NCBI GenBank assembly: GCA_021777755.1
Contig: JAJYDE010000023.1
Span: 1 to 58,973, forward strand
Length of the DNA stretch: 58,973 bases
Direction of reading: 5' to 3'
DNA from: Deltaproteobacteria bacterium
GTDB lineage: Bacteria > Desulfobacterota > Syntrophobacteria > Syntrophobacterales > Syntrophobacteraceae
Position 1 is the stretch's first letter; every line of letters starts with the position of its first letter. Shown in pieces: positions 1,607 through 18,679 of the stretch. The notes beneath the pieces were generated by a model. The model had not been told where the DNA came from. It ran no database searches and worked only from the letters and a program-made list of their open reading frames with translations. The position numbers were made by a program, and so were the translations under genes.

Positions 1607-2428
1607 TCAACTGAAGGACTTCTCCGTGGCTGTGCCCCCTGGTGGATTTTTCCTATGTTCGGCTTTCGAATAAATTTCGAACCTGTCGATGATGCCGAGA
1701 AACTCCTCCGGAAGCCTCAGTCTTACCTCCCGAACGATTTTTTCCGGGATCTTCCGGTAATAGGCATGGGCGATCGCACCGGCGATGCAGGCCAGGGTGT
1801 CGGAGTCCCCCCCCAAAGATACGGCCCTTCGCACCGCGTCTTCGTAATCGGTCGAGTCGAGAAAAGCGATGATCGCTTCAGGCACGCTCTTTTGGCAGGA
1901 AACTTCGAACCCGTAGGCCGGCCTTATCTGATCGGTTGTGCGGCTCAGATCATAGCCGAACCTGCCGGAAATCTCCTCCCGAAGAGTCGGTTTGTCCGTC
2001 CCGGCCGAGGCTAGAAATACGGCCAGCGCGGCCGCCTGCGCCCCTTTTATCCCTTCCGGATGATCATGGGTCACCTCGGCACTTTTTTTGGCTTCCCGCA
2101 ACACTTCTTCCACGCTCTCAAGCGCAAAGCCCAACGGGCTTACCCGCATCGCCGCCCCGTTGCCCCAGCTTCCGTACGGCCTGCAGTGGCTTTCGAAAAG
2201 CCAACGAAGAAAGCTTTGCCCGTAGCCGGCATCCGGGTACCTGCGCCCGAAGGATCGAAAGGATTCCGCGTAGCCCCGTTTTTCCATGAGGGCAAAAGCC
2301 GTGGCAACACTAAGCACCGTATCGTCGGTAAAGCGCGACTCGGCCTGAAAAAGGGGAAACTCCACAGTCTTTATCGGATGACGCTCGTATACCGACCCGA
2401 TGATATCGCCCGCCACCGCTCCAAACAT
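1607..2428 (-). CDS. ADP-ribosylglycohydrolase family protein (DraG/ARH-like)
   Basis: This 273-residue protein belongs to the family that removes ADP-ribose from proteins or small molecules using a pair of Mg ions. It opens with MFGAVAGDIIGSVYE, the usual family start. The metal-ligand motifs SRFTDDTVLS (near residue 30) and GGDSDTLACIAGAIAHAYY (near residue 205) are both intact, so an active enzyme is expected. The start is preceded by AAGGA about ten bases upstream. The substrate cannot be read from sequence, and no ADP-ribosyltransferase partner lies nearby. It is the first gene of a likely two-gene unit with pepF. Confidence 0.9.
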   Translation of the reverse strand: MFGAVAGDIIGSVYERHPIKTVEFPLFQAESRFTDDTVLSVATAFALMEKRGYAESFRSFGRRYPDAGYGQSFLRWLFESHCRPYGSWGNGAAMRVSPLGFALESVEEVLREAKKSAEVTHDHPEGIKGAQAAALAVFLASAGTDKPTLREEISGRFGYDLSRTTDQIRPAYGFEVSCQKSVPEAIIAFLDSTDYEDAVRRAVSLGGDSDTLACIAGAIAHAYYRKIPEKIVREVRLRLPEEFLGIIDRFEIYSKAEHRKNPPGGTATEKSFS

Positions 2429-3634: not shown

Positions 3635-3674
3635 TCGAAAGATTCTTTCAATACCATATAAAAGCTCCTTTCAG
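3635..3674. promoter_or_regulatory. Paired 17-bp palindromic activator sites upstream of a secreted peptide gene
   Basis: Site 1 (3635-3651) reads TCGAAAGATTCTTTCAA. Site 2 (3658-3674) reads ATAAAAGCTCCTTTCAG and is weaker. The sites start 23 bp apart. The same pair, in the same order and spacing, occurs at 7272-7311, 16591-16630 and 23905-23944. Site 2 ends 94 bp before the -24 element at 3768, a distance that fits an upstream activating sequence for a sigma-54 enhancer-binding protein. I infer that the activator is the NtrC-type regulator at 18680-20062. Confidence 0.7.
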
Positions 3675-3767
3675 TTTCGAGTTCATTGCCCCTGGGGCGC
3701 AAGGGCATGAATAGAATTTATTCTGTCATTTCCATTCGATAGAAAATTGACAAAAGTCGTGCCGGAT

Positions 3768-3783
3768 TGGCATTGGTGTTGCT
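3768..3783 (+). promoter_or_regulatory. Sigma-54 promoter (-24/-12)
   Basis: TGGCATTGGTGTTGCT matches the sigma-54 consensus TGGCAC-N5-TTGCW, with the invariant GG and GC exactly ten bases apart. Transcription would start near 3794, about 68 bases before the peptide start codon at 3862. Confidence 0.75.
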
Positions 3784-3861: not shown

Positions 3862-4062
3862 ATGAAAAGAGCATTCCTAACCCTGGCAACGGTCCTGACG
3901 CTGGTCGGCATTGTCGGCCTGACCCGCGCGATGGCTTCAATCCCCGAGGCGCTCTACTGCGCGCCAAGTTATACCAACTATATCGGCGCACCCGGAAGTT
4001 GTCCGACAATGGCTGCTGTGAGCGCCAACACGCCAAAGGCCATGGGAACTGTCGGATTTTGA
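3862..4062 (+). CDS. Small secreted peptide, GAPGSCPT family (copy 1)
   Basis: This 66-residue protein starts at an ATG preceded by AAAGGAGAAAGTC. Residues 1-25 are a signal peptide (MKRAFLTLATVLTLVGIVGLTRAMA, written here as MKRAFLTLATVL then TLVGIVGLTRAMA). The predicted mature peptide is about 41 residues with two Cys, and its core YTNYIGAPGSCPT is nearly identical to that of the paralogue at 7499-7699. I recognise no characterised family. The conserved C-terminal part follows the pattern ANTP-x3-G-x2-GF. It lies downstream of a sigma-54 promoter and paired activator sites, so it is probably induced by the local two-component system. A role in envelope or metal stress is inference only. 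Confidence 0.75.
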   Translation: MKRAFLTLATVLTLVGIVGLTRAMASIPEALYCAPSYTNYIGAPGSCPTMAAVSANTPKAMGTVGF

Positions 4063-4326
4063 GGACGGCGCCTGAAATGGGGGACCGATTCCACGCGCGG
4101 AGCGCAGTCCTCCATTTTTTGCGGGTGTACGGCAGCCTGAGCAAAGAGGTCACGAAAAGCAAATTTCTTCCCGGAAGAGCCTGGCGGTGGGGATGGAGGC
4201 GGATGACGACCTTCGAGCAGATGTCGGGGAAGTGCCCCGGGATGAAGCAGCTCGTTTTCATCCGGAGGCAGATGTCCTCTTTGGACAGGGAATTTTAGCC
4301 GAACTGCCCGCACAGGGAGGCTGCCA

Positions 4327-4440
4327 ATGAGTCGGCGGGATGATTTTCTTCTCAGTCCCGGCACCGTAATCAACGGGAAATGGGTCATACTGGAATTTCC
4401 GGGCAAAGGCGGAATGGCGGAAATAGTTGTGTATGTCAAG
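4327..4440 (+). pseudogene. N-terminal fragment of a Ser/Thr protein kinase
   Basis: The translation begins MSRRDDFLLSPGTVINGKWV and continues ILEFPGKGGMAEI. This aligns with the start of the intact kinase at 5303-7087 (IIDCKWVILELVGRGGMAEV), that is, the segment leading into the glycine-rich ATP loop. Homology stops after about 35 residues: the VAIK lysine and all later kinase motifs are absent. It is a truncated relic of a second kinase gene. It follows secreted-peptide copy 1, just as the intact kinase lies beside copy 2, suggesting an ancient duplication of a peptide-plus-kinase module. Confidence 0.7.
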
Positions 4441-4685
4441 TTCCGCAAATTCGATCAGACATGCGGGACGCCTGTTTTTTTGAACCACACTAAACGACGG
4501 ACCAGCGGAGGTGAGCCGGAGTCGCGGAGGGTGGCCGGAACGGGGTCCCCCCACGCCCCCTGCAGGCCATGCGCAACTCTCAATGTGGAGGGGGGAAACG
4601 ACCTGGAGGAGACGGGGGCCAATCCTCATATTTTATTGATTCCGAGTGGGGGGTATGCTTATCTTGGACAAAAGGGGAGATACCG

Positions 4686-4844
4686 GTGGGCTGGATCGAA
4701 ACGCTGACAAAAAAGGCTTTCATTGCCGCAGTTCGGGAGGCGGTAAAACCGGATATGGAGAGGCTTGAAGGCAAGATTGACCAGCTGGCGGCTCAAACGG
4801 ATGCGCGTTTCGAGAAATTGACTGATCGCGTAAGGGTTGGCTGA
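4686..4844 (+). CDS. Short coiled-coil ORF, possibly a gene remnant
   Basis: A 52-residue ORF starting at GTG with GGGGAG eight bases upstream. The C-terminal half (PDMERLEGKIDQLAAQ and following) has heptad-like spacing and would form a coiled coil. I do not recognise it. It sits in a decayed region between the kinase fragment and the intact kinase and may be a broken piece of a longer gene continuing in another frame at 4882. Confidence 0.35.
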   Translation: MGWIETLTKKAFIAAVREAVKPDMERLEGKIDQLAAQTDARFEKLTDRVRVG

Positions 4845-4881
4845 GCGAGTTTCCCGACCGGAAGGAACCATTGAAGGAACT

Positions 4882-4992
4882 ATGCGGGCGTATGAAGCAA
4901 ACGTACGTTGGATGTTTGTCGAATTTCAGCCTGATATCGAACGGGAGATTTTTACCCGGCTGCTCGATGACAAAAAGCGGCCTGCCGCTTAG
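4882..4992 (+). CDS. 36-residue ORF, probable remnant
   Basis: MRAYEANVRWMFVEFQ continues to a TAG at 4990. GAAGGAAC lies just before the ATG. The composition looks protein-like (charged, amphipathic) rather than random. It is in a different frame from the coiled-coil ORF that ends 37 bases upstream, so both could be halves of one frameshifted gene. No function can be proposed. Confidence 0.3.
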   Translation: MRAYEANVRWMFVEFQPDIEREIFTRLLDDKKRPAA

Positions 4993-5302
4993 ACTTTACG
5001 CGTCAATTCGTCATCCCGCCGCTTTGGCAAAAAAAAGACGCAAGCGATGGACAGGAAAATGGATATAACAAACCCGAACCAACCCAGCTTGCGGCGCATC
5101 ATCGGCGCCCCATGTTTCAGCAATTCCACCTCATCGCGCTTTCGAGGTTTTGCAGAGCACCTGCCGGCCCCGGACCATGATATCGGGTCCGCCCTTCCGT
5201 TCGGCCGAATTCCGGAACGAGGTCCAATTACCTGGCAAGCTCGGAGAAATCCCGATGATAAAAATGAGCAGCAAGTTTAAAGTCGCGGCGCCGCAAGAGT
5301 GT
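4993..5302. other. Stretch without a recognisable gene
   Basis: About 310 bases between the small remnant ORF and the 3' end of the kinase gene. No ORF with a credible start or recognisable translation is seen on either strand. It is probably decayed sequence continuous with the remnants upstream. Confidence 0.4.
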
Positions 5303-7087
5303 CTAGGGGCTTGGGGTCTCCGAGGGCGCCGACACCGTCCTGAATCCGACATCCCCGGAGGCATCCCAGGGGTTTCGAGGGCGCCCCGTTTTTGAAAGCC
5401 CATTGTCCGTTTGGTTTCCCAAAACGACATAGCCGGCCCCCCCGCCCGACCAGGCCCATTCACCAAATTGGCCGTCCAGACCGCGAATGCCGAACCGATC
5501 CGCCAGCATGTCCAACACGGGAGCGGAAAAATTCGGGCCAAAACCAAGACCTTGCACGGACGGGAGCTTTCGAGACAGTTTGCCCTTGAGAGCCACGTAT
5601 ATCCATTGCCTTACCGACGGCAGGCGGCGTCCGTAATGGCCGGCATAGGCCTCGGCCCCGTAGGCGGTTACCCGGAGCACGGGACATGAGGAATGTTGAG
5701 CGCCGCTTAGTTCAAACCTGCCGTTCCTGTGGAGGATCGGCGCATAGCCCTTCACGACATCGCCGAGGAAAAGCCAGAGGTGGCCTCCGGCGATGACCGC
5801 GTTATCCTTGACGGTGATCTTTGAAAGCGAATCGTTTAGAAATTCGATGAACTGGTAGTTGGTCACCAGGTACTCGTCCATGTAAAATGAGCCGATTCTG
5901 GCAGGATTGCCCCCGGCGCCAGCCGGCATTTCCCCTCCAGGGATCAGGTGCAGCACGGCCCCGTCCCGCCCCGTAATCCGAAACCGGGGAATTTTCCCGC
6001 CGCGAGCGCCGTTTTTCAACGACTCATGTTTTTGTGCGATTGGAGCCTTTCCGGCTCTCAAACCAAGATAGCATTGGACCCCGGCGGGGCTCAAGGCGGC
6101 GGCGAGCCCGATCAGTACGACCAAGGCCGCAATTACAATCAGCGCGGGAACAAATCTTGGGCTCTTTTTGCTTGTTCCCGGCCCCCCGGTTCCCTCCGAC
6201 GATTTCAAAACCCGGGCACACAGTTGTTCAAGGGCCGATTTCATCTCCTCCACGGATTGAAAACGCCCCCCCTTGTCCAGCGCGGTCGCCCTTTTAATCA
6301 CAAGGTCGAGCGCTTTAAAAAATTGACTTTCCGGTTCCTCCAGGCTCGCCTGCTTGAAGGGGATTTGATCGGCCTTGAACTTGCCGGATATCGCTTCATG
6401 GAGGATTTTACCCAGCGAATAGATATCGGCGCGCTCATCGGACCTGCGAAAATCCAGGAAGTGCTCGGGCGACATGTAGGCGGGAGTGCCTCTTATCTCA
6501 ACCGAGCGGGTAATGGGCTCCAAACTGGAGGACCTTGCGATGCCAAAATCGGTGATCCTTGGTTTCTTTCCATCAAAGAGAACGTTTTCCGGCTTCAGGT
6601 CCCGATGGACTATCCCGAGGCGGTGCAAAGCCGCCACACCGTCCAATAGCGGAATAAAGCAATCGCGCACCCATTGCCCGGCCCGTTCCACATCCGGATA
6701 AAACCCTTCAACCGACATCGAGGTTCGAAGCGAGGTCCCGGGCATGAATTCCATCACGATATATTCGATCCGCGCCTCTTTTTGACCATTGGCAATCGAG
6801 GCCGACCCATAATCGAAAACCCTCACCACATTCGGGTGCTGAATTTGCGCCATGACCTTCACTTCCCGCCGAAAACGCTCCAGGCATAGCGCAGCCTCAT
6901 CCTCATCCGCTCCTATCTCCTCGATCAGTTTGTGCGAGATCACCTTTATGGCCACCTGCCGTCCCAGCTTCAACTGGTAGGCCCGATAAACCTCGGCCAT
7001 CCCTCCTCGACCCACGAGTTCGAGGATCACCCATTTGCAGTCGATTATGTCCCCCGCCCGAAAAGTGGTTTGATCAAGATCACTCAT
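5303..7087 (-). CDS. Membrane Ser/Thr protein kinase fused to a formylglycine-generating-enzyme-like domain
   Basis: This 594-residue protein has an N-terminal Hanks-type kinase at residues 17-290: glycine loop GRGGMAEV at 26-33, ATP-binding Lys48, catalytic loop HRDLKPEN at 161-168, DFG at 180-182 and the GTPAYMSPEH activation segment at 200-209. All catalytic residues are present, so it should be active. One transmembrane helix (about 312-332) follows, placing the C-terminal 260 residues outside the cytoplasm. That part resembles the SUMF1/FGE-sulfatase fold (FYMDEYLVTNYQFIEFLN, RRLPSVRQW, and near the end GDVGFRT). An ATG at 7087 is chosen over an in-frame TTG at 7108. It is transcribed away from secreted-peptide copy 2, with which it shares the intergenic region. 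Confidence 0.9.
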   Translation of the reverse strand: MSDLDQTTFRAGDIIDCKWVILELVGRGGMAEVYRAYQLKLGRQVAIKVISHKLIEEIGADEDEAALCLERFRREVKVMAQIQHPNVVRVFDYGSASIANGQKEARIEYIVMEFMPGTSLRTSMSVEGFYPDVERAGQWVRDCFIPLLDGVAALHRLGIVHRDLKPENVLFDGKKPRITDFGIARSSSLEPITRSVEIRGTPAYMSPEHFLDFRRSDERADIYSLGKILHEAISGKFKADQIPFKQASLEEPESQFFKALDLVIKRATALDKGGRFQSVEEMKSALEQLCARVLKSSEGTGGPGTSKKSPRFVPALIVIAALVVLIGLAAALSPAGVQCYLGLRAGKAPIAQKHESLKNGARGGKIPRFRITGRDGAVLHLIPGGEMPAGAGGNPARIGSFYMDEYLVTNYQFIEFLNDSLSKITVKDNAVIAGGHLWLFLGDVVKGYAPILHRNGRFELSGAQHSSCPVLRVTAYGAEAYAGHYGRRLPSVRQWIYVALKGKLSRKLPSVQGLGFGPNFSAPVLDMLADRFGIRGLDGQFGEWAWSGGGAGYVVLGNQTDNGLSKTGRPRNPWDASGDVGFRTVSAPSETPSP

Positions 7088-7271
7088 ACCGCCAATCCAA
7101 TGCGTCAAAAAGTTTTCCAGGAATAATGCCTGTCAGGAACAGGTTTGCGAGTCGTGCTCATAACGTGCTAAAATAGCTGAAAAAACCAAGAGCAAAATGC
7201 TTGCCAAACCATCGAGGCCAGCCTCCAGGGATTCAATTCGCGGAGGCCAGGGAACGTCGTTGTCAATTTGA

Positions 7272-7311
7272 TTGAAAGATTCTTTCAACACCACGCAAAA
7301 GCTCCTTTCAA
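7272..7311. promoter_or_regulatory. Paired 17-bp palindromic activator sites (best copy)
   Basis: Site 1 (7272-7288) is the perfect palindrome TTGAAAGATTCTTTCAA. Site 2 (7295-7311) reads GCAAAAGCTCCTTTCAA. They start 23 bp apart, and site 2 ends 94 bp before the -24 element at 7405. The geometry is identical to that at 3635-3674. Confidence 0.75.
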
Positions 7312-7404
7312 TTTCGAGTCCATTTCCGGGGAGGCCCACGATTAAAAACAGAAATTATCCCGTTATTTCCGAAGCATGCAAAAGCGGCCGAAGTTATACG
7401 GGAT

Positions 7405-7420
7405 TGGCATCGTCGTTGCT
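7405..7420 (+). promoter_or_regulatory. Sigma-54 promoter (-24/-12)
   Basis: TGGCATCGTCGTTGCT has the invariant GG and GC ten bases apart, close to TGGCAC-N5-TTGCW. Transcription would start near 7431, about 68 bases before the peptide ATG at 7499, the same leader length as copy 1. Confidence 0.75.
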
Positions 7421-7498
7421 CTTCAATGAGGCAACCGAAGCACAAACAAAAAGAACTGGAATCGGGTCCTCGGACTCACTTATTAAAAGGAGAAAGTA

Positions 7499-7699
7499 AT
7501 GAAAAGAGCAATCCCAACCCTTGTGATGGTCCTGACGCCAGTCGGCTTTGTCGGCCTGACCGGTGCGATGGCCGCACCCTCCAGGGCACCCTGCCGCGCG
7601 TCGGGCTATACCAACCATATCGGCGCACCCGGAAGCTGTCCGACAATGAGTGTGGTTGGCGCCAACACTCCAACAGTTATCGGAGCCGCGGGGTTCTGA
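7499..7699 (+). CDS. Small secreted peptide, GAPGSCPT family (copy 2)
   Basis: This 66-residue paralogue of the protein at 3862-4062 has the same length. Its signal peptide begins MKRAIPTLVMVLTPVGFVGL and ends TGAMA, and its core is YTNHIGAPGSCPTM. AAAGGAGAAAGTA precedes the ATG. Two Cys are conserved with copy 1 (one near the mature N-terminus, one in SCPT), which would allow a disulfide or metal site in the periplasm. Leader, ribosome site, promoter and activator sites are duplicated together with the coding sequence, and selection appears to have kept both reading frames. Function unknown. Confidence 0.75.
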   Translation: MKRAIPTLVMVLTPVGFVGLTGAMAAPSRAPCRASGYTNHIGAPGSCPTMSVVGANTPTVIGAAGF

Positions 7700-7901: not shown

Positions 7902-8123
7902 ATGAATTGCTGAGAATTCAAGAAATGGGGAAGAGAGATGGGAGGGGCTAAAGCAAAAGAATTGGGCGTCTGCCCGGCTTATCCCGACCATGGAAAGAAC
8001 CGCGCCCGTATCGCGGGTACGCTTTGTGGCGGCAAAGTGCAAGGGACTTTTGCATCAAAGCTGGTCAACCGCATCGAGTGCGACTTCTACAAGAGCCCGA
8101 ATTACAACAAGTCCGGCGCTTAG
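7902..8123 (+). pseudogene. Two-CW-domain protein interrupted by an in-frame TGA
   Basis: From the ATG at 7902 (AAGGGGAGAG upstream) the frame reads MNC, then TGA at 7911-7913, then EFKKWGREMGGAKAKELG and on to AGTLCGGKVQGTFA and a natural stop. Two-CW family proteins start with MNCWEFKKCGRE, so the TGA replaces the first Trp codon (TGG to TGA). Further expected Cys are changed: Cys to Trp in FKKWG, and Cys to Arg in KNRAR and in VNRIEC. An internal ATG at 7938 could still give a 61-residue product. Loss of several metal-type Cys together with the stop argues for a decaying gene rather than selenocysteine or recoding. Confidence 0.75.
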
Positions 8124-8494
8124 AGATGATGCAACAGCGGCCTTCCCGCGTCCTGCCCGAAATTCCCGCTGGCGGGGGATTTCCGAGAGCTGTGGAAACA
8201 TAAATATCCGTAAGCGGGCTATAAGGTTATGCTAAATAGGAAGGTTTACCCGCGCCAAATCATGCCATATAATAAACGCCGAAAATGAAACCCGAACATG
8301 CCGGGGACGGCCCGGTTGCGGCCATGTTTTCCGTTGCCCCGAAAACCGAGGCCGAACGCGCCCGATCGTATCGGCTGCGGAGTGGTTACCAATGCTCGCG
8401 AAGAAGTTTCGGGATGCGGGCCGGTTTTTGAATCGCAATTGGCATTATACTTGCTTAGCCAACTGTCAAAATCAAGGAACAAGGTGAGGCGCTG
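8124..8494. other. Intergenic region with the cus promoter
   Basis: About 370 bases without a gene. Its one clear signal is the sigma-54 promoter at 8440-8455. An inverted repeat (GTTTTC at 8326-8331 and GAAAAC at 8341-8346) is present, but no copy of the TTGAAAG-type activator palindrome is seen. Confidence 0.5.
8440..8455 (+). promoter_or_regulatory. Sigma-54 promoter of the cusBA operon
   Basis: TGGCATTATACTTGCT fits TGGCAC-N5-TTGCW, with GG and GC ten bases apart. Transcription would begin near 8466, about 29 bases before the cusB ATG. The expected paired palindromes are missing upstream, so the activator may bind a different or degenerate site. Confidence 0.65.
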
Positions 8495-9985
8495 ATGAGA
8501 AAAAATTTTCTTTTCATTATCTTATGCGGCCTGATTGCCGCGGCGGCCTTTGTGGCCGGCCAAATAAGCGAAAAAGCCAACCGGCACCCGAGAACGGCGC
8601 AGATGGCCATGAGTTCCCCAAGCGGCCCCGCGGCCCCGCAACCCTCGGCCAAGAGAAAAATTCTCTATTACAGAGATCCGATGAATCCGGCGATTACATA
8701 CAAACATCCCGGCAAAGCCCCCTGCGGCATGGATCGTGTACCCGTCTACGCAAAATCGACAGGGAGCGCGCAATCCGGGGCGACCGCGGGCGCCTCTTCA
8801 GGGGAAAAGCCCGAAGGCAAGGGCAAAATCCTTTATTGGCGTTCATCCATGGACCCCGGTTTCATTTCGAAAAAGCCGGGCAAGGATTCCATGGGCATGG
8901 ATCTTGTGCCGGTCTACGCAAACCAGCTCAGTTCGGGCGAGGTCACCATCAGCCCCACGGTGGTGCAGGACATCGGCGTTACCACCACCAAGGCCGTAAG
9001 CGCCCCTTTCAACAAAACCATCAGGACTTACGGAACGACCCAGTGGAATGAAAAAACCCTGGCCGCGATAAACACCAAGCTTTCGGGCTGGATCGAAAAG
9101 CTCTATGTCCAGGAGAACGGCCAAGTGGTGCGAAAAGGGCAGCCGCTGTTAAAGATATATTCACCGGAACTTGTGAGCGCCCAGCAGGAATATCTCTCGG
9201 CGCTCGATAACGCCAAAGCGCTCGATAAAGCCAAGGCAAGCCAGGGCGCATCCCTGGACACAATGATTGACGCGGCCGCGAAACTGCCCGAATCGGCCCG
9301 GATGCGCCTGAGGCTCTGGGACATAAGCGGGGGGCAGATAAGGGAGCTTGAAAAAACCCGGCGGGTTCGAAAAACACTGACTCTTTACGCTCCCTTCGAC
9401 GGCATAGTAACCGACCGGAAGGTTATAGAGGGCGATTATATCAAGCCGGGGATGAACCTTATGACGATCGCGGGCCTGAATCCCATCTGGACGATGGGCT
9501 ACATATACGAAGACGAGATCCCGATGGTCAAAAAAGGCATGCCTGCGACGCTCAATTTCGACTCGATACCCGGAAAGACCTTCCATGGCGTGGTCGATTA
9601 CGTCTATCCCTATGTGCAGGGAAAGTCGCGCACCAGCAAGGTTCGAATCGTCCTGGCCAATCCGAACCAAATCCTTTTGCCCGATATGTACGGCACGGTC
9701 AAGATCAACGCGCCCGCCAAAGCCAATTGCGTTCAGATACCCGGGGACGCCGCCATTCGCGCCTCGTCAACCGACAGCGTGGTTTTCATAGCCGAGGGCA
9801 AAGGGCACTTTGCCGGCCGCAAGGTGATCCTCGGGCCAACTGGCGACGACGGCATGGTCGTGGTCAAAGCGGGTCTAAAGCCCGGAGAGCGTGTGGTGAC
9901 TTCGGCACAGTTTCTTCTCGACTCCGAAGCCAGGCTGAGCGAGGCAAGTCAATCCATGCTGAACCACGGAGGCTCCGGCAAATGA
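8495..9985 (+). CDS. cusB: CusB-like RND efflux adaptor with two heavy-metal-binding domains
   Basis: A 496-residue periplasmic adaptor linking the inner-membrane pump to the outer-membrane channel for Cu(I)/Ag(I) export. Residues 1-22 form a membrane anchor or signal segment. Two heavy-metal-binding (HMBD, YHYH-like) modules follow at about 55-86 (ILYYRDPMNP, then CGMDRVPVY) and 110-142 (ILYWRSSMDP, then SMGMDLVPVY). The barrel-sandwich and hairpin adaptor body follows (for example GWIEKLYVQENGQVVRKGQP, and YIYEDEIPMVKKG). Most CusB homologues carry one or no such module, so the tandem pair is unusual. The stop overlaps the cusA start by four bases (ATGA). A sigma-54 promoter lies just upstream. 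Confidence 0.93.
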   Translation: MRKNFLFIILCGLIAAAAFVAGQISEKANRHPRTAQMAMSSPSGPAAPQPSAKRKILYYRDPMNPAITYKHPGKAPCGMDRVPVYAKSTGSAQSGATAGASSGEKPEGKGKILYWRSSMDPGFISKKPGKDSMGMDLVPVYANQLSSGEVTISPTVVQDIGVTTTKAVSAPFNKTIRTYGTTQWNEKTLAAINTKLSGWIEKLYVQENGQVVRKGQPLLKIYSPELVSAQQEYLSALDNAKALDKAKASQGASLDTMIDAAAKLPESARMRLRLWDISGGQIRELEKTRRVRKTLTLYAPFDGIVTDRKVIEGDYIKPGMNLMTIAGLNPIWTMGYIYEDEIPMVKKGMPATLNFDSIPGKTFHGVVDYVYPYVQGKSRTSKVRIVLANPNQILLPDMYGTVKINAPAKANCVQIPGDAAIRASSTDSVVFIAEGKGHFAGRKVILGPTGDDGMVVVKAGLKPGERVVTSAQFLLDSEARLSEASQSMLNHGGSGK

Positions 9986-12900
9986 TTTCTTCCGCAATCG
10001 ACTGGTCCATTAAGAACCGGTTCCTCGTCCTTATTTTGACCGCGATTTTTGTGGCCACGGGCATCTTTGTCGTCTATCACACGCCGCTTGACGCCATTCC
10101 GGATCTTTCCGACACCCAGGTGATCATCTACACCCAGTTTCCGGGCCAAAGTCCTTCGGTGGTCGAAGATCAGGTGACCTATCCCATCTCGACAGAAATG
10201 CTGCATTTGCCCGGGGTCAAGGTGGTGCGCGGTTACTCGTTTTTCGATTTCTCCGAGGTCTACATCATCTTCAAAGGCGGAACGGACCTCTACTGGGCAA
10301 GGGACCGCGTTTTGGAATACTTGAGCTACATCCAGTCGCAGCTTCCCCGGGGCGTCTCGCCCCAACTGGGGCCCGACGCCACGGGCGTTGGCTGGATCTA
10401 CGAGTACGCCCTGGTCGATAAATCCAACAAGATGCCTCTGTGGAAGATGCGATCGCTCCAGGACTGGTATCTGCGCTACGGACTGGAGACGGTAAAGGGG
10501 GTCTCCGAGGTCGCTTCTCTTGGCGGATATGTCAAGCAGTACCAGGTCGAACTCGATCCCAACAAGCTCGCCGACTATCATGTGGGGCTGGAGAAAGTAA
10601 GGAGCGCCATCACAAGTTCGAATAACGACGTGGGCGGGCGCCTGGTGGAATATGGCCAAACCCAATACATGGTGCGCGGGCTGGGCTATCTGCGGCACAG
10701 CGGAGATCTGAAAAAGGTGGTGATCGGAGTGGATCCCAACGGCCAACCGGTATTGCTCGACCAGGTTGGAAACGTCCACATCGGCCCCCAACTGAGGCTC
10801 GGAATGGCCGATCTCAACGGCAAGGGAGACGTGGCGGGGGGCATCGTGGTTATGCGCTTCGGTGAAAACCCCTACAAGGTGATCAAGGCGATCAAGAAAA
10901 AGTTGACCGAGCTGAAGAGGGGACTTCCAAAGGGAGTTGAAATCGTTCCGACTTACGATCGTTCCGCCCTCATAAATCGCAGCGTTTCGTTTCTGCGGGA
11001 AAAACTCATAGAGGAACTGATCACGGTATCGCTTGTCTGCGTTCTTTTCCTGTTTCACTTCAGCAGCGCACTGGTTGCCATCGTCTTTTTGCCCCTGGGA
11101 GTTATGGCGGCCCTTATCTGCATGTATTTCAAGGGCATCAACAGCAATATCATGAGCCTCGGTGGCATCGCCATAGCCATGGGGGCGATGGTCGATTCGG
11201 CCATCATAATGATAGAAAACGCCCACAAGAAGATCGAGCACGGCTACGACAAGGAGCATCATTGGCAGATGATCGCCGAGGCTTCCAAGGAAGTGGGGCC
11301 ATCGCTGTTTTTTTCGCTCCTTGTGATCACGGTTTCCTTTCTGCCCATATTCGCGCTAAACGGTCAATCGGGACGGCTTTTCAAACCCCTGGCCTACACG
11401 AAAACCTTCGCCATGGGCTCGGCGGCTTTTCTGGCCGTGCTGCTCGCCCCGGTGCTCATGGGCTATTTCATTCGCGGCCATATCCGGCCGGAGATGGAAA
11501 ATCCAATCAACCGGTTTCTGGTCAAGGTTTATCACCCGGTTTGCGAGTGGGTCCTGAACCACCGAAAGAGCGTCCTGATTGCCGCGTTCCTCATCTTTAT
11601 CAGCACATTCTACCCGCTGACGCGCCTGGGGAGCGAATTCATGCCCCCGCTCGATGAAGGCGACCTTCTCTACATGCCTTCTATGTTGCCAGGGATTACC
11701 TTCACCGAGTCCAAAGCGCTGCTCGAACAGACCGACCGAATCATCAAGAGCTTTCCCGAGGTGCAAAGCGCATACGGAAAAGCCGGCCGCGCGGACACCG
11801 CAACCGACCCGGCGCCTCTGGAGATGTTCGAGACAGTCGTCCAGCTTCATCAAAATAAGCGTTTTTGGCCCATGGTGAAGGAGCGGCGCTGGTATTCGTC
11901 CTGGGCCCCCGACTGGATGAAGAGGGCCCTTGGCTTCATTTGGCCCGAAGAGCGTCACACCACCATAAAGGAACTGGTGGACCAGCTCAATCAGGCCATC
12001 CAGTTTCCCGGCGTGACCAATGCGTGGACCATGCCCATCAAGACCCGAATCGATATGCTTAGCACCGGGATCAAAACCCCGGTGGGGATCAAGCTGCTGG
12101 GGGCAAATCTCAATACCCTCAGCAATTTGGCCAAACAGGTCGAAGCGGTGGTGCGAAAGATCCCCGGCACGCGGTCGGTCTATGCTCAGCGGGTCATGGG
12201 CGGTTATTACATGGATTACACCATCGACCGGAAGGCAGCCGCGCGCTACGGTCTCAACGTCCAGGACGTGGAGGACGTTATCGAAACCGCCCTGGGCGGC
12301 ATGGATGTGACTCAGACGGTGGAGGGTTTGGAGAGATACCCGGTCAATGTGCGCTACATGCGCAACTACCGGAGCGACATTCCGGCTCTTGAGCGGGTGC
12401 TCGTACCCACGCCCACGGGGACCGCGGTACCGATTTCACTACTTGCCAGCTTCAGAATTCACGAGGGGCCCCCGAATATTCAAACCGAAAACGCCGTAAA
12501 GACCGCGTGGATAACCGTGGACCTAAACACCTCGGATATCGGCGGCTACGTGGCCCGAGCAAGGAAAATCCTGGATGAAAAAGTCCAGCTGCCCCCCATG
12601 TACAACATGGTCTGGAGCGGCCAATACCAATACATGCAGGAGGCGCGCGCAAGGCTGAAGATCGCCATACCACTCACGCTGGTGATCGTCTTGCTGCTCC
12701 TTTATTTCAACGTCAAGTCCTTATCCAAGACCGCCCTGGTAATGCTCGCGGTGCCTTTTTCGCTGGTGGGATCTTTCTGGTTTCTCTATTTCGCTCACTA
12801 TCATCTATCGGTGGCCGTGGCAGTGGGACTGATCGCTTTGGCCGGACTCGACGCCGAAACGGGGGTTGTGATGCTGCTCTACCTCGATCTTGCCCACGAT

Positions 12901-13215
12901 CTGTGGGAAAAATTGGGGCGCATGAATACCTGCGGGGACCTCGAACAGGCCATCTACCATGGGGCGGTAAAGCGCATAAGGCCCAAGATGATGACCGTTG
13001 GCGCCATTCTCGCGGGTCTTACGCCCATTTTGTTCGGCGAGGGCACGGGCGCATCGGTGATGAAGCGAATCGCGGCCCCCATGGTCGGAGGCGTGGCCAC
13101 TTCGCTTCTGCTCGAACTGACCATCTACCCCGTTCTCTACTTTTATCTGAAACGGGGGCACCTGGATCCCTCCTTGAAGCCCACCTCCGAGGAGGAAGCC
13201 CGCGAGACGGCTTAA
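9982..13215 (+). CDS. cusA: CusA-like RND copper/silver efflux pump
   Basis: A 1077-residue proton-driven inner-membrane transporter of the heavy-metal RND family. The start ATG overlaps the cusB stop, and MISSAIDWSIKNRFLVLIL is the usual N-terminus. The three Met that bind Cu(I)/Ag(I) in E. coli CusA are present as Met565 (LLYMPSM), Met615 (APLEMFE) and Met692 (RIDMLSTG), which supports monovalent metal specificity over the Zn/Co type. Twelve transmembrane helices and two large periplasmic loops are evident. The stop codon lies inside the first unit of the tandem repeat array that follows. Confidence 0.95.
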   Translation: MISSAIDWSIKNRFLVLILTAIFVATGIFVVYHTPLDAIPDLSDTQVIIYTQFPGQSPSVVEDQVTYPISTEMLHLPGVKVVRGYSFFDFSEVYIIFKGGTDLYWARDRVLEYLSYIQSQLPRGVSPQLGPDATGVGWIYEYALVDKSNKMPLWKMRSLQDWYLRYGLETVKGVSEVASLGGYVKQYQVELDPNKLADYHVGLEKVRSAITSSNNDVGGRLVEYGQTQYMVRGLGYLRHSGDLKKVVIGVDPNGQPVLLDQVGNVHIGPQLRLGMADLNGKGDVAGGIVVMRFGENPYKVIKAIKKKLTELKRGLPKGVEIVPTYDRSALINRSVSFLREKLIEELITVSLVCVLFLFHFSSALVAIVFLPLGVMAALICMYFKGINSNIMSLGGIAIAMGAMVDSAIIMIENAHKKIEHGYDKEHHWQMIAEASKEVGPSLFFSLLVITVSFLPIFALNGQSGRLFKPLAYTKTFAMGSAAFLAVLLAPVLMGYFIRGHIRPEMENPINRFLVKVYHPVCEWVLNHRKSVLIAAFLIFISTFYPLTRLGSEFMPPLDEGDLLYMPSMLPGITFTESKALLEQTDRIIKSFPEVQSAYGKAGRADTATDPAPLEMFETVVQLHQNKRFWPMVKERRWYSSWAPDWMKRALGFIWPEERHTTIKELVDQLNQAIQFPGVTNAWTMPIKTRIDMLSTGIKTPVGIKLLGANLNTLSNLAKQVEAVVRKIPGTRSVYAQRVMGGYYMDYTIDRKAAARYGLNVQDVEDVIETALGGMDVTQTVEGLERYPVNVRYMRNYRSDIPALERVLVPTPTGTAVPISLLASFRIHEGPPNIQTENAVKTAWITVDLNTSDIGGYVARARKILDEKVQLPPMYNMVWSGQYQYMQEARARLKIAIPLTLVIVLLLLYFNVKSLSKTALVMLAVPFSLVGSFWFLYFAHYHLSVAVAVGLIALAGLDAETGVVMLLYLDLAHDLWEKLGRMNTCGDLEQAIYHGAVKRIRPKMMTVGAILAGLTPILFGEGTGASVMKRIAAPMVGGVATSLLLELTIYPVLYFYLKRGHLDPSLKPTSEEEARETA

Positions 13216-13305: not shown

Positions 13306-13668
13306 TCAATGGCCCGATCCTCCCCCGCCAATTTTTATTCCCACCAGCATTTCGAGCCTTGCCAGACTCCGCTCCGGGTCTGTCAGGGCTCGTTCATAGA
13401 AGAGTTCGAATTCCACAGCAGGTTTCCGATCGCATCCACCACGCAAGCGCAGGTTGCCTTGCCGCTCCGGCAGGCCTGGAGCGACACATCTAGCGCCTGT
13501 TTGGCTTCGGGAACCAGCGCGTCCCGATAGAGGGCGATCTTTCGGTCCGCGTTCTGAAATTGGAACAAATCGCCCGCGGGAGCCAAAGCCCTGAATTCCC
13601 AACGTCACATCGGAATAATAGTCTTTTTTGGCGAGCGCGATTTTCCACTTTGCCCCGGAGGACTGAAA
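13306..13668 (-). pseudogene. cusC 3' remnant, unit 1
   Basis: It encodes the recognisable tail of an outer-membrane factor (ALVPEAKQALDVSLQA). About 155 bases corresponding to roughly 14958-15115 of intact cusC are deleted, which breaks the frame. A three-base insertion distinguishes this unit from the other two. Confidence 0.8.
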
Positions 13669-13781
13669 AGCTCGCCCGCGAGACGGCTTAAAGGAAAACT
13701 CGACGGGTTGATCAAAGCCGGATCATTTTTCATCAACGGCTTCCGGTCAAAGGGGAGGATCGGCTTCATGCCTTGAAGGCA

Positions 13782-14141
13782 TCAATGGCCCGATCCTCCT
13801 CGCCAATTTTTCTTCCCACCAGCATTTCGAGCCTTGCCAGACTCTGCTCCGGGTCTGTCAGGGCTCGTTCATAGAAGAGTTCGAATTCCAGCAGGTTTCC
13901 GATCGCATCCACCACGCAAGCGCAGGTTGCCTTGCCGCTCCGGCAGGCCTGGAGCGACACATCGAGCGCCTGTTTGGCTTCGGGAACCAGCGCGTCCAGA
14001 TAGAGGGCGATCTTTCGGTCCGCGTTCTGAAATTGGAACAAATCGCCCGCGGGAGCCAAAGCCCTGAATTCCCAACGTCACATCGGGATAATAGTCTTTT
14101 TTGGCGAGCGCGATTTTCCACTTTGCCCCGGAGGACTGAAA
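13782..14141 (-). pseudogene. cusC 3' remnant, unit 2
   Basis: The same truncated outer-membrane-factor tail with the same internal deletion as unit 1. The reading frame around FELFYERALTDPEQSLARLE is locally preserved. It has no start codon, signal peptide or N-terminal half. Confidence 0.8.
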
Positions 14142-14254
14142 AGCTCGCCCGCGAGACGGCTTAAAGGAAAACTCGACGGGTTGATCAAAGCCGGATCATT
14201 TTTCATGAACGGCTTCCGGTCAAAGGGGAGGATCGGCTTCATGCCTTGAAGGCA

Positions 14255-14614
14255 TCAATGGCCCGATCCTCCTCGCCAATTTTTATTCCCACCAGCATTT
14301 CGAGCCTTGCCAGACTCTACTCCCGGTCTGTCGGGGCTCGTTCATAGAAGAGTTCGAATTCCAGCAGGTTTCCGATCGCATCCACCACGCAAACGCAGGT
14401 TGCCTTGCCGCTCCGGCAGGCCTGGAGCGACACATCGAGGGCCTGTTTGGCTTCGGGAACCAGCGCGTCCCGATAGAGGGCGATCTTTCGGTCCGCGTCC
14501 TGCAATTGGAACAAATCGCCTGCCTGGGCCAAAGCCCTGAATTCCCAACGTCACATCGAGATAATAGTCTTTTTTGACGAGCGCGATTTTCCACTTTGCC
14601 CCGGAGGACTGAAA
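14255..14614 (-). pseudogene. cusC 3' remnant, unit 3
   Basis: The third copy of the truncated tail, adjacent to the intact gene. It shares the internal deletion with the other two, so the deletion predates the amplification. Confidence 0.8.
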
Positions 14615-14703: not shown

Positions 14704-16056
14704 TCAATGGCCCGAGCCTCCAGGGAGGCTCACTTTTCTACCCACCAGCATTTCGAGCTTTGCAAGGCTCTGCTCCCGGTCGGTCAGGGCTCGTTTATAG
14801 GAGAGTTCGAATTCGAGCAGGTTTCGGATCGCATCCACCACGTTGGCGTAGCTCGCCTTGCCGGTCTGGTAGGCCTGGAGCGACACATCGAGCGCCTGTT
14901 TGGCTTCGGGAACCAGCGCGTCCCGGTAGAGGGCTATCTTTCGGTCCGCATCCTTGAATTTGTAGTCGGCGAATTTAACATCCGCAACAAGGGTGTTTTC
15001 CCGGTCGGTTCGCTGTCTGCGAAACGCTTTGTAGTCGGCCATCGCCTCCCTTTTTTCGGCCCTGTATTTGCTCCACCAGATGGGGATATTTATCGAGGCA
15101 GTCGCCATCACCGGGTCATTGGGGACAAATTGCCTGCCCGTGTCAAAGCTCTGGATTCCAAGAGTCACATCGGGATAGTAGTCTTTCTTGGCAAGCGCGA
15201 TATTCCACTTTGCCCCGGAGGCCTGAAAATCGATGGCTCTCAGATCCGGATTGGACTCTTTCAGCCACGTCAAAAGCTGGCTGGTGGTAAAAGAGACCTT
15301 TTCCTCCACTATCTTTTCGGGCCAGAAAAGCGGAGCATCGGCAGGCCTGTTGAGCGCGGCGTTGAGTCTTGCGGCCACGGGTTCCGCCTCGTCGTTCAGG
15401 GTTTTAACCCGGTCTTCGAGTTTTCCCAGCTCCACTTGCGCCTGAACCACGTCCGCATAGGAAATGGTCCCCGATGAGTAGCCGGCGCGGGCCACGCTTT
15501 CCAAATACTTCACATAGCCGAGGTTTTCCCTTGTCACGACAATAGCCTGCGCAAGATAATAGTATTCATAGTATGCATCTTTTACCTGGAAAAACAGCTT
15601 GAGCTGTGCGGCATCATAGCGGGCCTTTTCGGCTCGGGCGGCATCGGCGGCGGCGTTGCCCTTGAGTTGGAGCTTTCCGAACCAGGGAAAGGTCTGGGTC
15701 ACAGCGATCCCCTGACCCTGAGGCGCCATGACGCCCTGTTGAACGTAGTAAAAATAGCCGAGTTGAGGGTCGGGCAAGGCGGTGACCTGGGGGATTTTTT
15801 CAAGCGCGGCCACCCATTGGAAAAAGGCGGCTTTAAGGCCGGGGTTGTTGAGGGCGGCATGGATGAGATAGTCATTCAGGCTCGACTTGGAGGAAATCTT
15901 CGGCGCCGTTGACGGCAGTGCCTTCGAAGGCATGACCTCTTTTTCCATAAGGGCCCGATTGTCGATGAGCGCGGCTTCCCTCGGGGGTACCGACGCGCAG
16001 CCCGCAAAAACAATCACCAGGGCCGTGAGGACCAGCCTCGTGCAAATTCTCTTCAT
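14704..16056 (-). CDS. CusC-like outer-membrane efflux lipoprotein (TolC family)
   Basis: A 450-residue outer-membrane channel that would complete the Cus tripartite pump. The start at 16056 (AAGGAG upstream) gives a lipoprotein signal ending in FAGC-ASV, so the mature protein is lipid-anchored at that Cys; a longer frame to 16170 is rejected. The two outer-membrane-efflux repeats are present, the first around LIHAALNNPGLKAAFFQW and the second including DYYPDVTLGIQSFD and the C-terminal KRALTDREQSLAKLEMLVG. It converges with cusA, from which the repeat array separates it, so it needs its own promoter in the 16057-16298 gap. Confidence 0.9.
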   Translation of the reverse strand: MKRICTRLVLTALVIVFAGCASVPPREAALIDNRALMEKEVMPSKALPSTAPKISSKSSLNDYLIHAALNNPGLKAAFFQWVAALEKIPQVTALPDPQLGYFYYVQQGVMAPQGQGIAVTQTFPWFGKLQLKGNAAADAARAEKARYDAAQLKLFFQVKDAYYEYYYLAQAIVVTRENLGYVKYLESVARAGYSSGTISYADVVQAQVELGKLEDRVKTLNDEAEPVAARLNAALNRPADAPLFWPEKIVEEKVSFTTSQLLTWLKESNPDLRAIDFQASGAKWNIALAKKDYYPDVTLGIQSFDTGRQFVPNDPVMATASINIPIWWSKYRAEKREAMADYKAFRRQRTDRENTLVADVKFADYKFKDADRKIALYRDALVPEAKQALDVSLQAYQTGKASYANVVDAIRNLLEFELSYKRALTDREQSLAKLEMLVGRKVSLPGGSGH

Positions 16057-16205
16057 GAATGCTCCTTGTTCCATTAATGCTGTCATGGATTTCGTTATTT
16101 GAAACGTTCTGATTTCTCGATCCCGCCTCGTGAAGACCGGAGAGTCTCTCCAAAAGAGATGAATCCACACCTTATGTCAAAATATTTCATAAGTTTCACC
16201 TCTTA

Positions 16206-16298: not shown

Positions 16299-16565
16299 AT
16301 GGGAACAATCAGGCGCAACACGTTTTTACTGATCGCTCTAGGGGTTCTGAGTTTCGGCTGGAGCATACCGCGGGTTGCCTACGCGGCCCCGCAGACCCTG
16401 TGCCCGGTCCTGGGAAACAAGATCAACAAGGCTATCCATGTGGACTATCAAGGGCAGCGCATCTATTTTTGCTGCCCCGGCTGTGTCGCCAAATTCAAGA
16501 AGGACCCGCAAAAATACTTGAGCAAAATGAAGGCCGAGGGGGTAACCCCGGCAAAGGCGCCCTGA
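16299..16565 (+). CDS. Secreted YHS-domain metal-binding protein
   Basis: An 88-residue protein with a signal peptide (residues 1-30, ending VAYAA) and a single YHS domain: CPVLGNKINKAIHVDYQG followed by IYFCCPGCVAKFKKDP. The Cys pattern (CPV and FCCPGC) is that of YHS proteins linked to copper efflux, so it probably binds Cu in the periplasm. AAGGAGAAAAA precedes the ATG. Its position between cusC and the sensor kinase supports a role in the same metal response. Confidence 0.85.
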   Translation: MGTIRRNTFLLIALGVLSFGWSIPRVAYAAPQTLCPVLGNKINKAIHVDYQGQRIYFCCPGCVAKFKKDPQKYLSKMKAEGVTPAKAP

Positions 16566-16590: not shown

Positions 16591-16630
16591 GTGAAAGGTT
16601 TTTTCAACGCTGATTGAAAGTTTTTTTCAA
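16591..16630. promoter_or_regulatory. Paired 17-bp palindromic activator sites upstream of the two-component genes
   Basis: Site 1 (16591-16607) reads GTGAAAGGTTTTTTCAA and site 2 (16614-16630) reads TTGAAAGTTTTTTTCAA. They start 23 bp apart, as at the other three loci, and site 2 ends 81 bp before the -24 element at 16711. The position upstream of the kinase/regulator pair suggests positive autoregulation. Confidence 0.7.
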
Positions 16631-16814: not shown

Positions 16815-18671
16815 ATGTACCGGTTCAAAGAAAAAATTTCGCACAGGTTTTTTGCCGCCTTCTTCATTGTAGCGGTGATCCCGATTGTGATCATGGGGCT
16901 GGGGTTGTACCGTAGCGCTCAAAAGACGCTTATCGACTCGGCCTACACACACATTCGCACAATTGCCCAGGACCGGGCGAACACGCTTCACTCATGGTAT
17001 GAAGAAAGGCTGGGAGACGTGCGGGTCCTCTCCAGGATGGCGGCAATAGGGGACCTTCTCTCCGGGGGCGGCGCCCCCGGAGAGAAGGCGTCAAAGGAGA
17101 CGCAGGCGGCCGCGGTACACGACCTGTTCGCTCTCAAACGCGCCAAGCCCCTGGCCTACGCCGACATCCATCTCATCACTTTATCGGGCCAGGTGATCGC
17201 TTCCACCGATCCCAAAAGCGAGATGATAGTAACGGGGATGTATCTTGAAGACCTCAAGAACATGGAAGCCGCCAAAGGCCCGGTTCTAAGCCACCTCATG
17301 CAGCACTCCGACCGCGAGTGGTACATCCATCTCACCGTTCCCGTCTATAGCCGGGACGGCAAGATAAAAGGGGCGGTTTTCTCGGTCCTGGACGCTTTGG
17401 GAACGCTTGATCCGATACTTTCGGACAGGACCGGCCTGGGCAAAAGCGGTGAGGCGTACCTGGTGGACAAGGAGGGGAAGATTGTCACGAAGTCGAGATT
17501 TTTAACTCTTGCGGAAACCGCCAACCGCAGGTTCAAAACCCGCGGCATAACCTCGGTCATCGCCCGAATAAACGGCGTGTCGATCTATCGCAACTACACG
17601 GGCCACGAAGCGGTGGGTTGTTACAGATGGCTGCCGCTCTTTCACGCCGGTCTTCTGGTCGAGATGGGCAAAAGCGAAATCCTGGCCCCCGTGCTGGCCA
17701 TCCGGACAGCGGTTTTGACCACGGCGGCCCTGGTGGTTTTGATCTGCTTTCCGGCCGCTTTTCTGCTAAGCGGACAAATCTCCAAGCCCATAATCGAGAT
17801 GGCCGAGGCTTCCCGTGAGATGGCCGGGGGCTCCATCGACCGCAGGATCGACTATTCGCGCCGCGACGAGATAGGAACGCTTTCGGAGAGTTTCAATTCG
17901 ATGGCCGAAGACCTCTCGTCACTGATAGGTTCGCTCAAGCAAAAGGAGATATCTCTTAAAGAGGCCTATGACGAGTTGATGCGGACCCAGGAGCAACTGG
18001 TTCAGTCCGAGAAGATGGCGGCCATCGGGGAACTGGTCGCCGGAGTGGTCCACGAAATGCGAAACCCGCTTTCGTCGGTAAAGCTCAATTTTCAGATAAT
18101 CGGCCGGTCCCTTGGGCGCTCGGCCCCTTTGCACGAGCATTATTGCATCGGCCTTGCCCAGATAGCTCAGCTCGAAAAGATGCTCTCCAGCCTGCTCGAT
18201 TACAGTAAGCCGATCTCGGTTCAAAAGGTCCGGTTTGAACTGGAAACAATCGTATCCGAGAGCCTTGTGCAATTGCAACCCCTTGTAAAAGCGCGGACGA
18301 TCGAAGTCAAAACTGAAGGGGCCATTGCCGAGGTGGCCGGAGATCCGGAACAGATCCGGCAGGTGCTCACAAACGTGATCAAAAACGCGGTCGAGGCCGC
18401 CGGAGAATCCGGCCGGGTCGAGGTGAGGATAAGGGCGGGGGGTGAAAACAGCCACAACAGCTCCCTGGTCGAAGTTATAGATAATGGTCCGGGGATTTCC
18501 GAACAGGATCTCAAGCGCATTTTCCTGCCCTTTTTCACGACCAAAAAGGAGGGAACGGGCCTTGGGCTCTCCATTGTGAAAAAGATAATGGAGGCCCACG
18601 GGTTTCGGGTTCGTGTTTCCAGCCGGGAGGGAACCGGCGCGGTTGTAAGCCTGCATTTCCACTCCGAGTGA
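16815..18671 (+). CDS. Membrane sensor histidine kinase (NtrB/ZraS-like)
   Basis: A 618-residue kinase: a transmembrane helix at about 14-34, a periplasmic Cache-type sensor at about 35-290, a second transmembrane helix at about 295-318, then HAMP (ISKPIIEMAEASREMAGG). A HisKA domain follows with the phospho-acceptor His413 in VVHEMRNPLSS, then an HATPase with VIDNGPGIS and TTKKEGTGLGLSIVKK. It would phosphorylate the regulator that starts nine bases after its stop. Neighbouring Cus and YHS genes make a metal or envelope-stress signal likely, but the sensor domain shows no obvious Cys or His metal cluster, so the ligand is open. Confidence 0.92.
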   Translation: MYRFKEKISHRFFAAFFIVAVIPIVIMGLGLYRSAQKTLIDSAYTHIRTIAQDRANTLHSWYEERLGDVRVLSRMAAIGDLLSGGGAPGEKASKETQAAAVHDLFALKRAKPLAYADIHLITLSGQVIASTDPKSEMIVTGMYLEDLKNMEAAKGPVLSHLMQHSDREWYIHLTVPVYSRDGKIKGAVFSVLDALGTLDPILSDRTGLGKSGEAYLVDKEGKIVTKSRFLTLAETANRRFKTRGITSVIARINGVSIYRNYTGHEAVGCYRWLPLFHAGLLVEMGKSEILAPVLAIRTAVLTTAALVVLICFPAAFLLSGQISKPIIEMAEASREMAGGSIDRRIDYSRRDEIGTLSESFNSMAEDLSSLIGSLKQKEISLKEAYDELMRTQEQLVQSEKMAAIGELVAGVVHEMRNPLSSVKLNFQIIGRSLGRSAPLHEHYCIGLAQIAQLEKMLSSLLDYSKPISVQKVRFELETIVSESLVQLQPLVKARTIEVKTEGAIAEVAGDPEQIRQVLTNVIKNAVEAAGESGRVEVRIRAGGENSHNSSLVEVIDNGPGISEQDLKRIFLPFFTTKKEGTGLGLSIVKKIMEAHGFRVRVSSREGTGAVVSLHFHSE

Positions 18672-18679
18672 AGGAGCTT

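Follow-up and report, generated by a model that had tools for sequence, protein, structure and literature searches.

Two paralogous genes encode small peptides, copies A and B, that are best explained as envelope components of a sigma-54-controlled stress regulon of the copper/silver type in which they would have a metal-related role, a joint reading that is judged somewhat better than an even bet. Taken alone, membership of the peptides in the regulon is very probable, and metal binding by them stands at an even chance. The window, that is, the whole stretch of 58,973 nt that was analyzed, is an entire contig of a 4.2-Mb Syntrophobacteraceae genome in 103 contigs; its open reading frames, their conservation, the promoters, the distribution of the operator, and the gene neighborhood were obtained by computation. 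The peptides are probably new metal-stress envelope proteins, because they are apparently switched on by the sensor system of neighboring copper/silver-pump genes, and they form a family that is real, selected, and restricted to one lineage; its setting is of a familiar type, but the arrangement is new. The initial annotation, which had proposed a selected role in the envelope such as metal binding, redox, or a surface signal, is partly supported overall; sigma-54 promoters, a shared operator, a sensor/regulator pair, and a pump were absent from it, and these elements make the metal option specific.

Copy A (positions 3862 to 4062) and copy B (7499 to 7699) lie on the plus strand, and an ORF check, pairwise comparison, and a ten-member alignment confirmed the paralogous 66-residue products described earlier. 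These are 62% identical and have in common a signal peptide, the core YTNxIGAPGSCPT, and a run of ten identical residues, IGAPGSCPTM; both ORFs are preceded by the ribosome-binding site AAGGAGAAAG. The signal peptide, as read from the sequence, is of the Sec type and ends in AMA. The mature part would then be some 41 residues long and contain two Cys (two to three Cys and one to two Met); neither Met/His clusters nor a YHS domain were found in it. The second Cys (C47) is invariant in the ten aligned members, and the first shifts by one residue or becomes CC, so that the earlier claim that two Cys are kept holds for one of them. At the DNA level, the loci form an ungapped 300-nt repeat of 75% identity, 225 nt of it upstream DNA, and the similarity reaches the stop codons and then drops. 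No further convincing copy was found in the own 4.2-Mb genome. The AlphaFold model of copy A has a mean pLDDT of 54 and is confident only at the signal-peptide helix (residues 2 to 25), so that it is uninformative for the mature part.

The decay said to surround the two genes is visible in part: copy A is followed by a fragment of a Ser/Thr kinase gene (4327 to 4485, plus strand, recognized by comparison), corresponding to some 33−53 residues of the N-terminus, and three tandem partial copies of the 3′ part of an outer membrane factor (OMF) gene occupy 13342 to 14614 (minus strand), in the interval that separates cusA from the full OMF gene; however, the kinase gene at 5306−7108 and the pump genes are open. 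A fragment of the kinase gene also occurs in G007 (genomes of the genus carry G numbers, the own genome being G000). An ADP-ribosylglycohydrolase-family gene lies upstream of copy A (1607 to 2428, minus strand).

A search of 97 genomes, own included, returned convincing relatives in three other species, all of the own Syntrophobacteraceae genus, with E values of 1e-3 to 1e-23, and the A/B pair is therefore more than chance; homologues, which the initial annotation had left to a search, thus exist outside this locus. They comprise two members in G001, on contig C246 and, in divergent form, on C230 (E 3e-5), two in G007, on C273 and C1 (the latter at E 0.0014 with this query), and four in G005. 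At an E limit of 1, 61 of the 97 genomes gave a match, values of 0.007 or worse being treated as chance, and a weak match in G010 (L041) corresponded to no relative at that locus. The four G005 members and one G007 member are 98 aa long and contain two copies of YC-x3-YTxxIGAPGSxG. The divergent G001:C230 member (L035) was excluded from the profile A4. Among the GTDB species genomes, a pattern scan confirmed seven loci, six of them in G001, G005, and G007 (titled Deltaproteobacteria or Syntrophobacteraceae MAGs); the seventh (L059), a weak match in an Opitutaceae MAG (E 3e-4 over 31 residues), is the sole one outside the genus, and distant relatives may have escaped because one short pattern was used.

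The statement that the peptides have no known family was borne out, as Pfam and NCBIfam gave no family for them (a lone Pfam match at E 0.38 was taken as chance); in the same databases, no ZraP/CpxP-like family was matched at E 1, nor was CusF. Against PDB sequences the best match had an E of 0.54, also taken as chance. No paper was found for the motifs GAPGSCPT, AGSCPDM, and IGAPGSEG, and the peptides were not named among the papers listed on sigma-54 and copper (Geobacter included), Desulfovibrio regulators, ZraP, small copper peptides, or Syntrophobacteraceae in mine drainage. Origins on mobile elements were rejected: one 98-aa query had no match among plasmids and one 69-aa query none among phages, profile A4 confirmed 0 of 51 pattern matches on viral contigs, and PHROGs gave merely E 0.02−0.04 for three of four peptides.

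Both genes follow a sigma-54 promoter found by pattern match, TTGGCATTGGTGTTGCT for copy A (3767 to 3783) and TTGGCATCGTCGTTGCT for copy B (7404 to 7420), and in both the element TTGGCATN5TTGCT begins 95 nt upstream of the ATG. A third site, TTGGCATTATACTTGCT (8439 to 8455; all three on the plus strand), lies 5′ of the cusB-like gene and has counterparts before cusB in G005, G008, and G010. These three are the matches of TGGCAYN5TTGCW in the window, where 0.14 were expected. The bare pattern TTGGCAYN5TTGCW in the whole own genome gave 9 matches versus 4 for controls, which weighs against the regulon reading. When TTGGCAYN5TTGC had to be followed by AGGAG at 45−75 nt, 29 matches versus 1 control were obtained in the 11 genomes of the genus, and 15 of them precede exported peptides, seven GAPGS-type and eight of a second, MCFAGSCPDM type. 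The remaining 14 precede two other small exported proteins, four acyl-CoA-synthetase-like genes (a label read from the sequence), and, in eight cases, other or no clear genes. RpoN is encoded in 11/11 genomes. Acyl-CoA-synthetase-like genes with TTGGCAYN5TTGC promoters are L060, L062, L063, and L064 (in G004, G000, G001, and G005), and in G008 a 90-aa exported Met/Cys/Gly-rich protein (L066, 1583 to 1852, plus strand) follows a sigma-54-like site.

Upstream of the peptide promoters of A, B, G001, and G007 lies an operator-like palindrome, TTGAAAN5TTTCAA, which in both window copies starts 132 nt before the −24 element. Pattern search located it as TCGAAAGATTCTTTCAA for copy A (3635 to 3651, one mismatch), as TTGAAAGATTCTTTCAA for copy B (7272 to 7288), and twice before the sensor kinase gene (16591 to 16630; the first, 16591−16607, with one mismatch and the second, 16614−16630, exact), so that the window holds it in four places (six strand matches) versus 0.08 expected. 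In the 11 genomes, a tighter form, TTGAAAGNTTNTTTCAA, has 11 exact sites, nine on contigs that bear the kinase, and 0 controls, and the looser form 37 sites versus 4 controls, although the operator and enhancer patterns were partly drawn from promoters later found with them. Fifteen of the 37 looser sites are on kinase contigs, which make up about 1.4% of the sequence (summed from rounded lengths, leaving out the G002 kinase contig of 7,236 bases, which has no site); the binomial probability, 1e-18, assumes independent sites though the species share ancestry.

Among the sites inspected, the palindrome precedes peptides in G000 (copy A with the one mismatch), G001, and G007, the kinase in G000, G005, and G010, and a Met/Cys/His-rich protein in G006 and G007. 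It also stands in the YHS/OMF gap of G007 and G008, before CusB-like genes in G001 (65% identity over 82 aa), G003 (40%), and G009 (39%), and near one in G004. Two observations count against the regulon: the cusB gene of the window is preceded by a sigma-54 site, yet no palindrome was seen before it, and 22 of the 37 looser palindromes lie off the kinase contigs. One off-contig palindrome, TTGAAAGACTATTTCAA, recurs in five genomes (G000:C67:49191, G001:C124:19335, G005:C74, G007:C150, and G010:C18) and adjoins an lspA-like gene (label read from the sequence) in the two that were inspected; those of G001:C49 and G005:C77 have no evident metal gene nearby.

The genes that follow copy B outline a Cus-type efflux locus. 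On the plus strand, domain searches identified a CusB-like adaptor with a heavy-metal-binding domain, HMBD (8495 to 9985), directly followed by a CusA-type heavy-metal RND pump (9982 to 13215). The pump scores 1149 bits with TIGR00914 of the CusA/CzcA family (cut-off 701) and is nearest to E. coli CusA in the E. coli comparison (1138 bits versus 489 for ZneA); its Met residues 567, 615, and 692 align within three motifs that we take to be the CusA methionine triad. Then come an outer membrane efflux protein (OEP domain; 14704 to 16170, minus strand) and, again on the plus strand, an 88-aa exported protein with a Pfam YHS domain (16299 to 16565), a sensor histidine kinase with dCache, HAMP, HisKA, and HATPase domains (16815 to 18671), and an NtrC-type response regulator with receiver, sigma-54 activation, and Fis helix−turn−helix domains (18668 to 20062). 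Divergent from copy B is a Ser/Thr kinase with an FGE-sulfatase-like domain (5306 to 7108, minus strand; domain search), an orthologue of which is divergent from the G001 peptide. A 61-aa protein with two CW domains is encoded between copy B and cusB (7938 to 8123, plus strand; NCBIfam 36.6 against a cut-off of 35).

Orthologues were listed at identities of at least 45% for the kinase, regulator, and activator and at least 35% for the Ser/Thr kinase. The sensor part of the kinase is present in 11/11 genomes of the genus with the regulator adjoining in each (split over two contigs in G007 and cut by the contig end in G006). The kinase is accompanied by CusB (62−63%), CusA (75%), and OMF (63−74%) orthologues in G005 and G008 and, in the part of G010 that was covered, by an OMF (81%) and the N-terminal 63 residues of CusB (67%). 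Directly 5′ of it is an exported YHS-type protein in G000, G005, G007, G008, and G010 (Pfam on the window copy) and a Met/Cys/His-rich exported protein in G006. All three species with a window-type peptide (G000, G001, and G007) have it inside this block. In G001, the divergent Ser/Thr kinase lies on one side of it and the sensor kinase on the other; in G007, the Met/Cys/His-rich gene and the YHS-kinase genes take these places; in G000, it precedes cusBA, and the kinase/regulator pair is 9 kb from copy B. Downstream of the GAPGSCPT peptide, G001 and G007 encode another small exported Cys peptide (L034, 7856−7647, and L036, 1959−1753, both minus strand); the two are 61% identical and match no Pfam family. 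Against the preferred reading, AtoS/AtoC are the best-scoring matches of the kinase and regulator, ahead of ZraS (166 bits, cut-off 479) and ZraR (350 bits, cut-off 760), and all are below cut-off.

In the mechanism that these elements suggest, the membrane kinase with its dCache domain, for which copper or silver would be the signal, activates the NtrC-type regulator, which would bind the palindromes about 130 nt upstream of the sigma-54 promoters; this pairing of regulator and operator, like the signal itself, is what we infer from the arrangement of the sites and genes. The activated regulator would turn on the peptides plus its own operon and, in sister species, also the CusB-type pump genes and the small exported YHS and Met/Cys/His-rich proteins. 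After predicted export, the mature peptides would most probably use Cys and Met to bind a soft metal in the periplasm, Cu(I)/Ag(I) or one like them, and would buffer it or hand it to the Cus pump. The two to three Cys and one to two Met per peptide are modest for a metal buffer, which counts against the metal role.

A different control region was recognized in G005 and G007, which together encode 16 exported Cys peptides of the two families on several contigs (L119−L124 and L038−L040). The 98-aa peptides and the MCFAGSCPDM family share another enhancer, GATATTTMACGAAWAAATRTANNATATTTCC, which, with up to three mismatches, has 13 sites in the 11 genomes and 0 controls; all 13 end 162−186 nt before such a peptide and cover 13 of the 16, and three of them (G005:C104, G007:C66, and G007:C262) were absent from the derivation of the pattern. 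Two sigma-54 enhancers at least thus precede peptides of this kind. A sigma-54 activator that lacks a receiver was seen in three copies, each divergent from a peptide; it has a GAF-like sensor by reading, although Pfam finds no sensor domain. RND-pump-like genes (22−24% identity to the window's CusA) are on the same contigs (L119, L120, L122, and L123). Because most G005/G007 relatives have this different enhancer and other gene neighbors, they weigh against the metal regulon. Possibly, though we lean against it, the GAPGS and MCFAGSCPDM peptides would form a previously unrecognized class of exported Cys peptides that has its own sigma-54 control, a genus-specific secretome that traps metals or signals outside, of which the window pair is a branch captured by the Cus regulator. 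The G005/G007 regulon, found so far only before peptides, offers a clean entry to learning their function.

That the peptides are proteins under selection follows from comparison between species rather than between the two copies. By the Nei−Gojobori method, dN/dS of A versus B is 0.53, whereas copy A gives 0.30 and 0.26 and copy B 0.18 and 0.16 against G001 and G007, respectively; G001 versus G007 gives 0.10 and the five 98-aa copies 0.10−0.24 among themselves. Purifying selection is thus clear for the family and for copy B and weaker for copy A, and the earlier description of the peptides as selected holds between species (0.10−0.30) and weakly between the copies. The second family ranges from 0.25 to 0.85, and its constraint is therefore weaker. 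It is hardly credible that no functional protein is made and that A and B are chance ORFs or a conserved RNA or promoter region: amino-acid changes between A and B are not below those of shuffled substitutions (P 0.16), and the promoter is conserved as well, but in the five other pairs among A, B, G001, and G007 they are fewer (P 0.0053 to none of 4000 shuffles), with a third-position excess of up to 28 of 48. Rfam has no match at the peptide loci, its sole match being a tRNA at 35 kb, and on this, with the codon-level conservation between species, a spurious ORF or RNA was rejected.

The remaining alternatives concern the task of the peptides. They might belong to the same regulon with another job, as accessories of the sensor kinase, for feedback or in envelope stress, that handle no bulk metal themselves, which we consider unlikely, though not strongly so. 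In G001 and G007 the peptide precedes the kinase, and this position, the common operator, and the few metal-ligand residues would fit such a task; ZraP is called a chaperone and repressor of ZraSR in a reference title within PMC7657598. However, the kinase is found in 11/11 genomes and the window-type peptide in only three species, so the sensor works without it, and other small secreted Cys proteins (YHS, Met/Cys/His-rich) fill the same slot elsewhere. A pheromone-like signaling or interaction peptide, cut from multicopy and sometimes two-repeat precursors, is improbable: the 98-aa forms do have two repeats, the 16 scattered G005/G007 copies come with an enhancer of their own, and a sigma-54 activator gene diverges from a peptide gene, but no processing or transport gene was recognized beside the peptides, the window copies carry the operator of a metal-efflux locus, and the core is kept between species, unlike many strain-specific signals. 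Least expected among these tasks, and very improbable, is a thiol/redox or otherwise envelope-protective peptide induced by the same stress. Its Cys are mostly paired and a thioredoxin-like gene (as read from the sequence) closely follows the divergent member L035 in G001, yet the position of the first Cys is not conserved and L035 has neither the GAPGS core nor a strict sigma-54 site. Of the envelope roles proposed earlier, the general outline gains from the Cus-type efflux, the YHS protein, and the two-component system nearby, while redox and a surface signal drew no positive evidence.

If the metal-stress regulon is correct, an unrecognized, lineage-restricted family of envelope peptides joins bacterial copper/silver handling, and Cus-type pump genes come under a sigma-54 NtrC-type two-component system; with a defined operator and promoter, the regulon is directly testable. 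The nearest working analogue would be ZraP−ZraSR (HydHG), in which, according to excerpts of PMC7657598, a small exported protein is likewise linked to a metal-related sigma-54 NtrC-type two-component system and ZraR acts as a sigma-54-dependent regulator on zraP and its own genes. The autoregulation of that operon, given in the same excerpts, resembles the operator before the kinase gene here. In both systems a membrane kinase and an NtrC-type regulator lie beside the peptide gene (an adjacent block in G001 and G007, at 9 kb in the window), with a predicted sigma-54 promoter at the peptides and a putative operator common to them and the regulator operon. A simple ZraP analogy is not favored, because zraP was strongly down under copper in a sulfate reducer, as stated in an excerpt of PMC8836040. 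The peptides have no sequence relation to ZraP and no Pfam family, the kinase has a dCache domain and falls below the ZraS cut-off, the regulator scores higher to AtoC, and the system is coupled to a Cus-type pump.

With CusF and CusCBA−CusRS, the locus shares a CusBA-type pump, an HMBD adaptor, an OMF, and small exported partner proteins, but the peptides are outside the CusF family by sequence, and control is by a sigma-54/NtrC-type pair, whereas E. coli CusR is an OmpR-type sigma-70 activator. Closest in position are the YHS and Met/Cys/His-rich exported proteins of the genus, which take the slot before the kinase in sister species, the Met/Cys/His-rich ones with the same operator. Although the GAPGSCPT peptides differ from them in having no YHS domain and no Met/His clusters, the three kinds of protein in this slot can be compared as alternative solutions.
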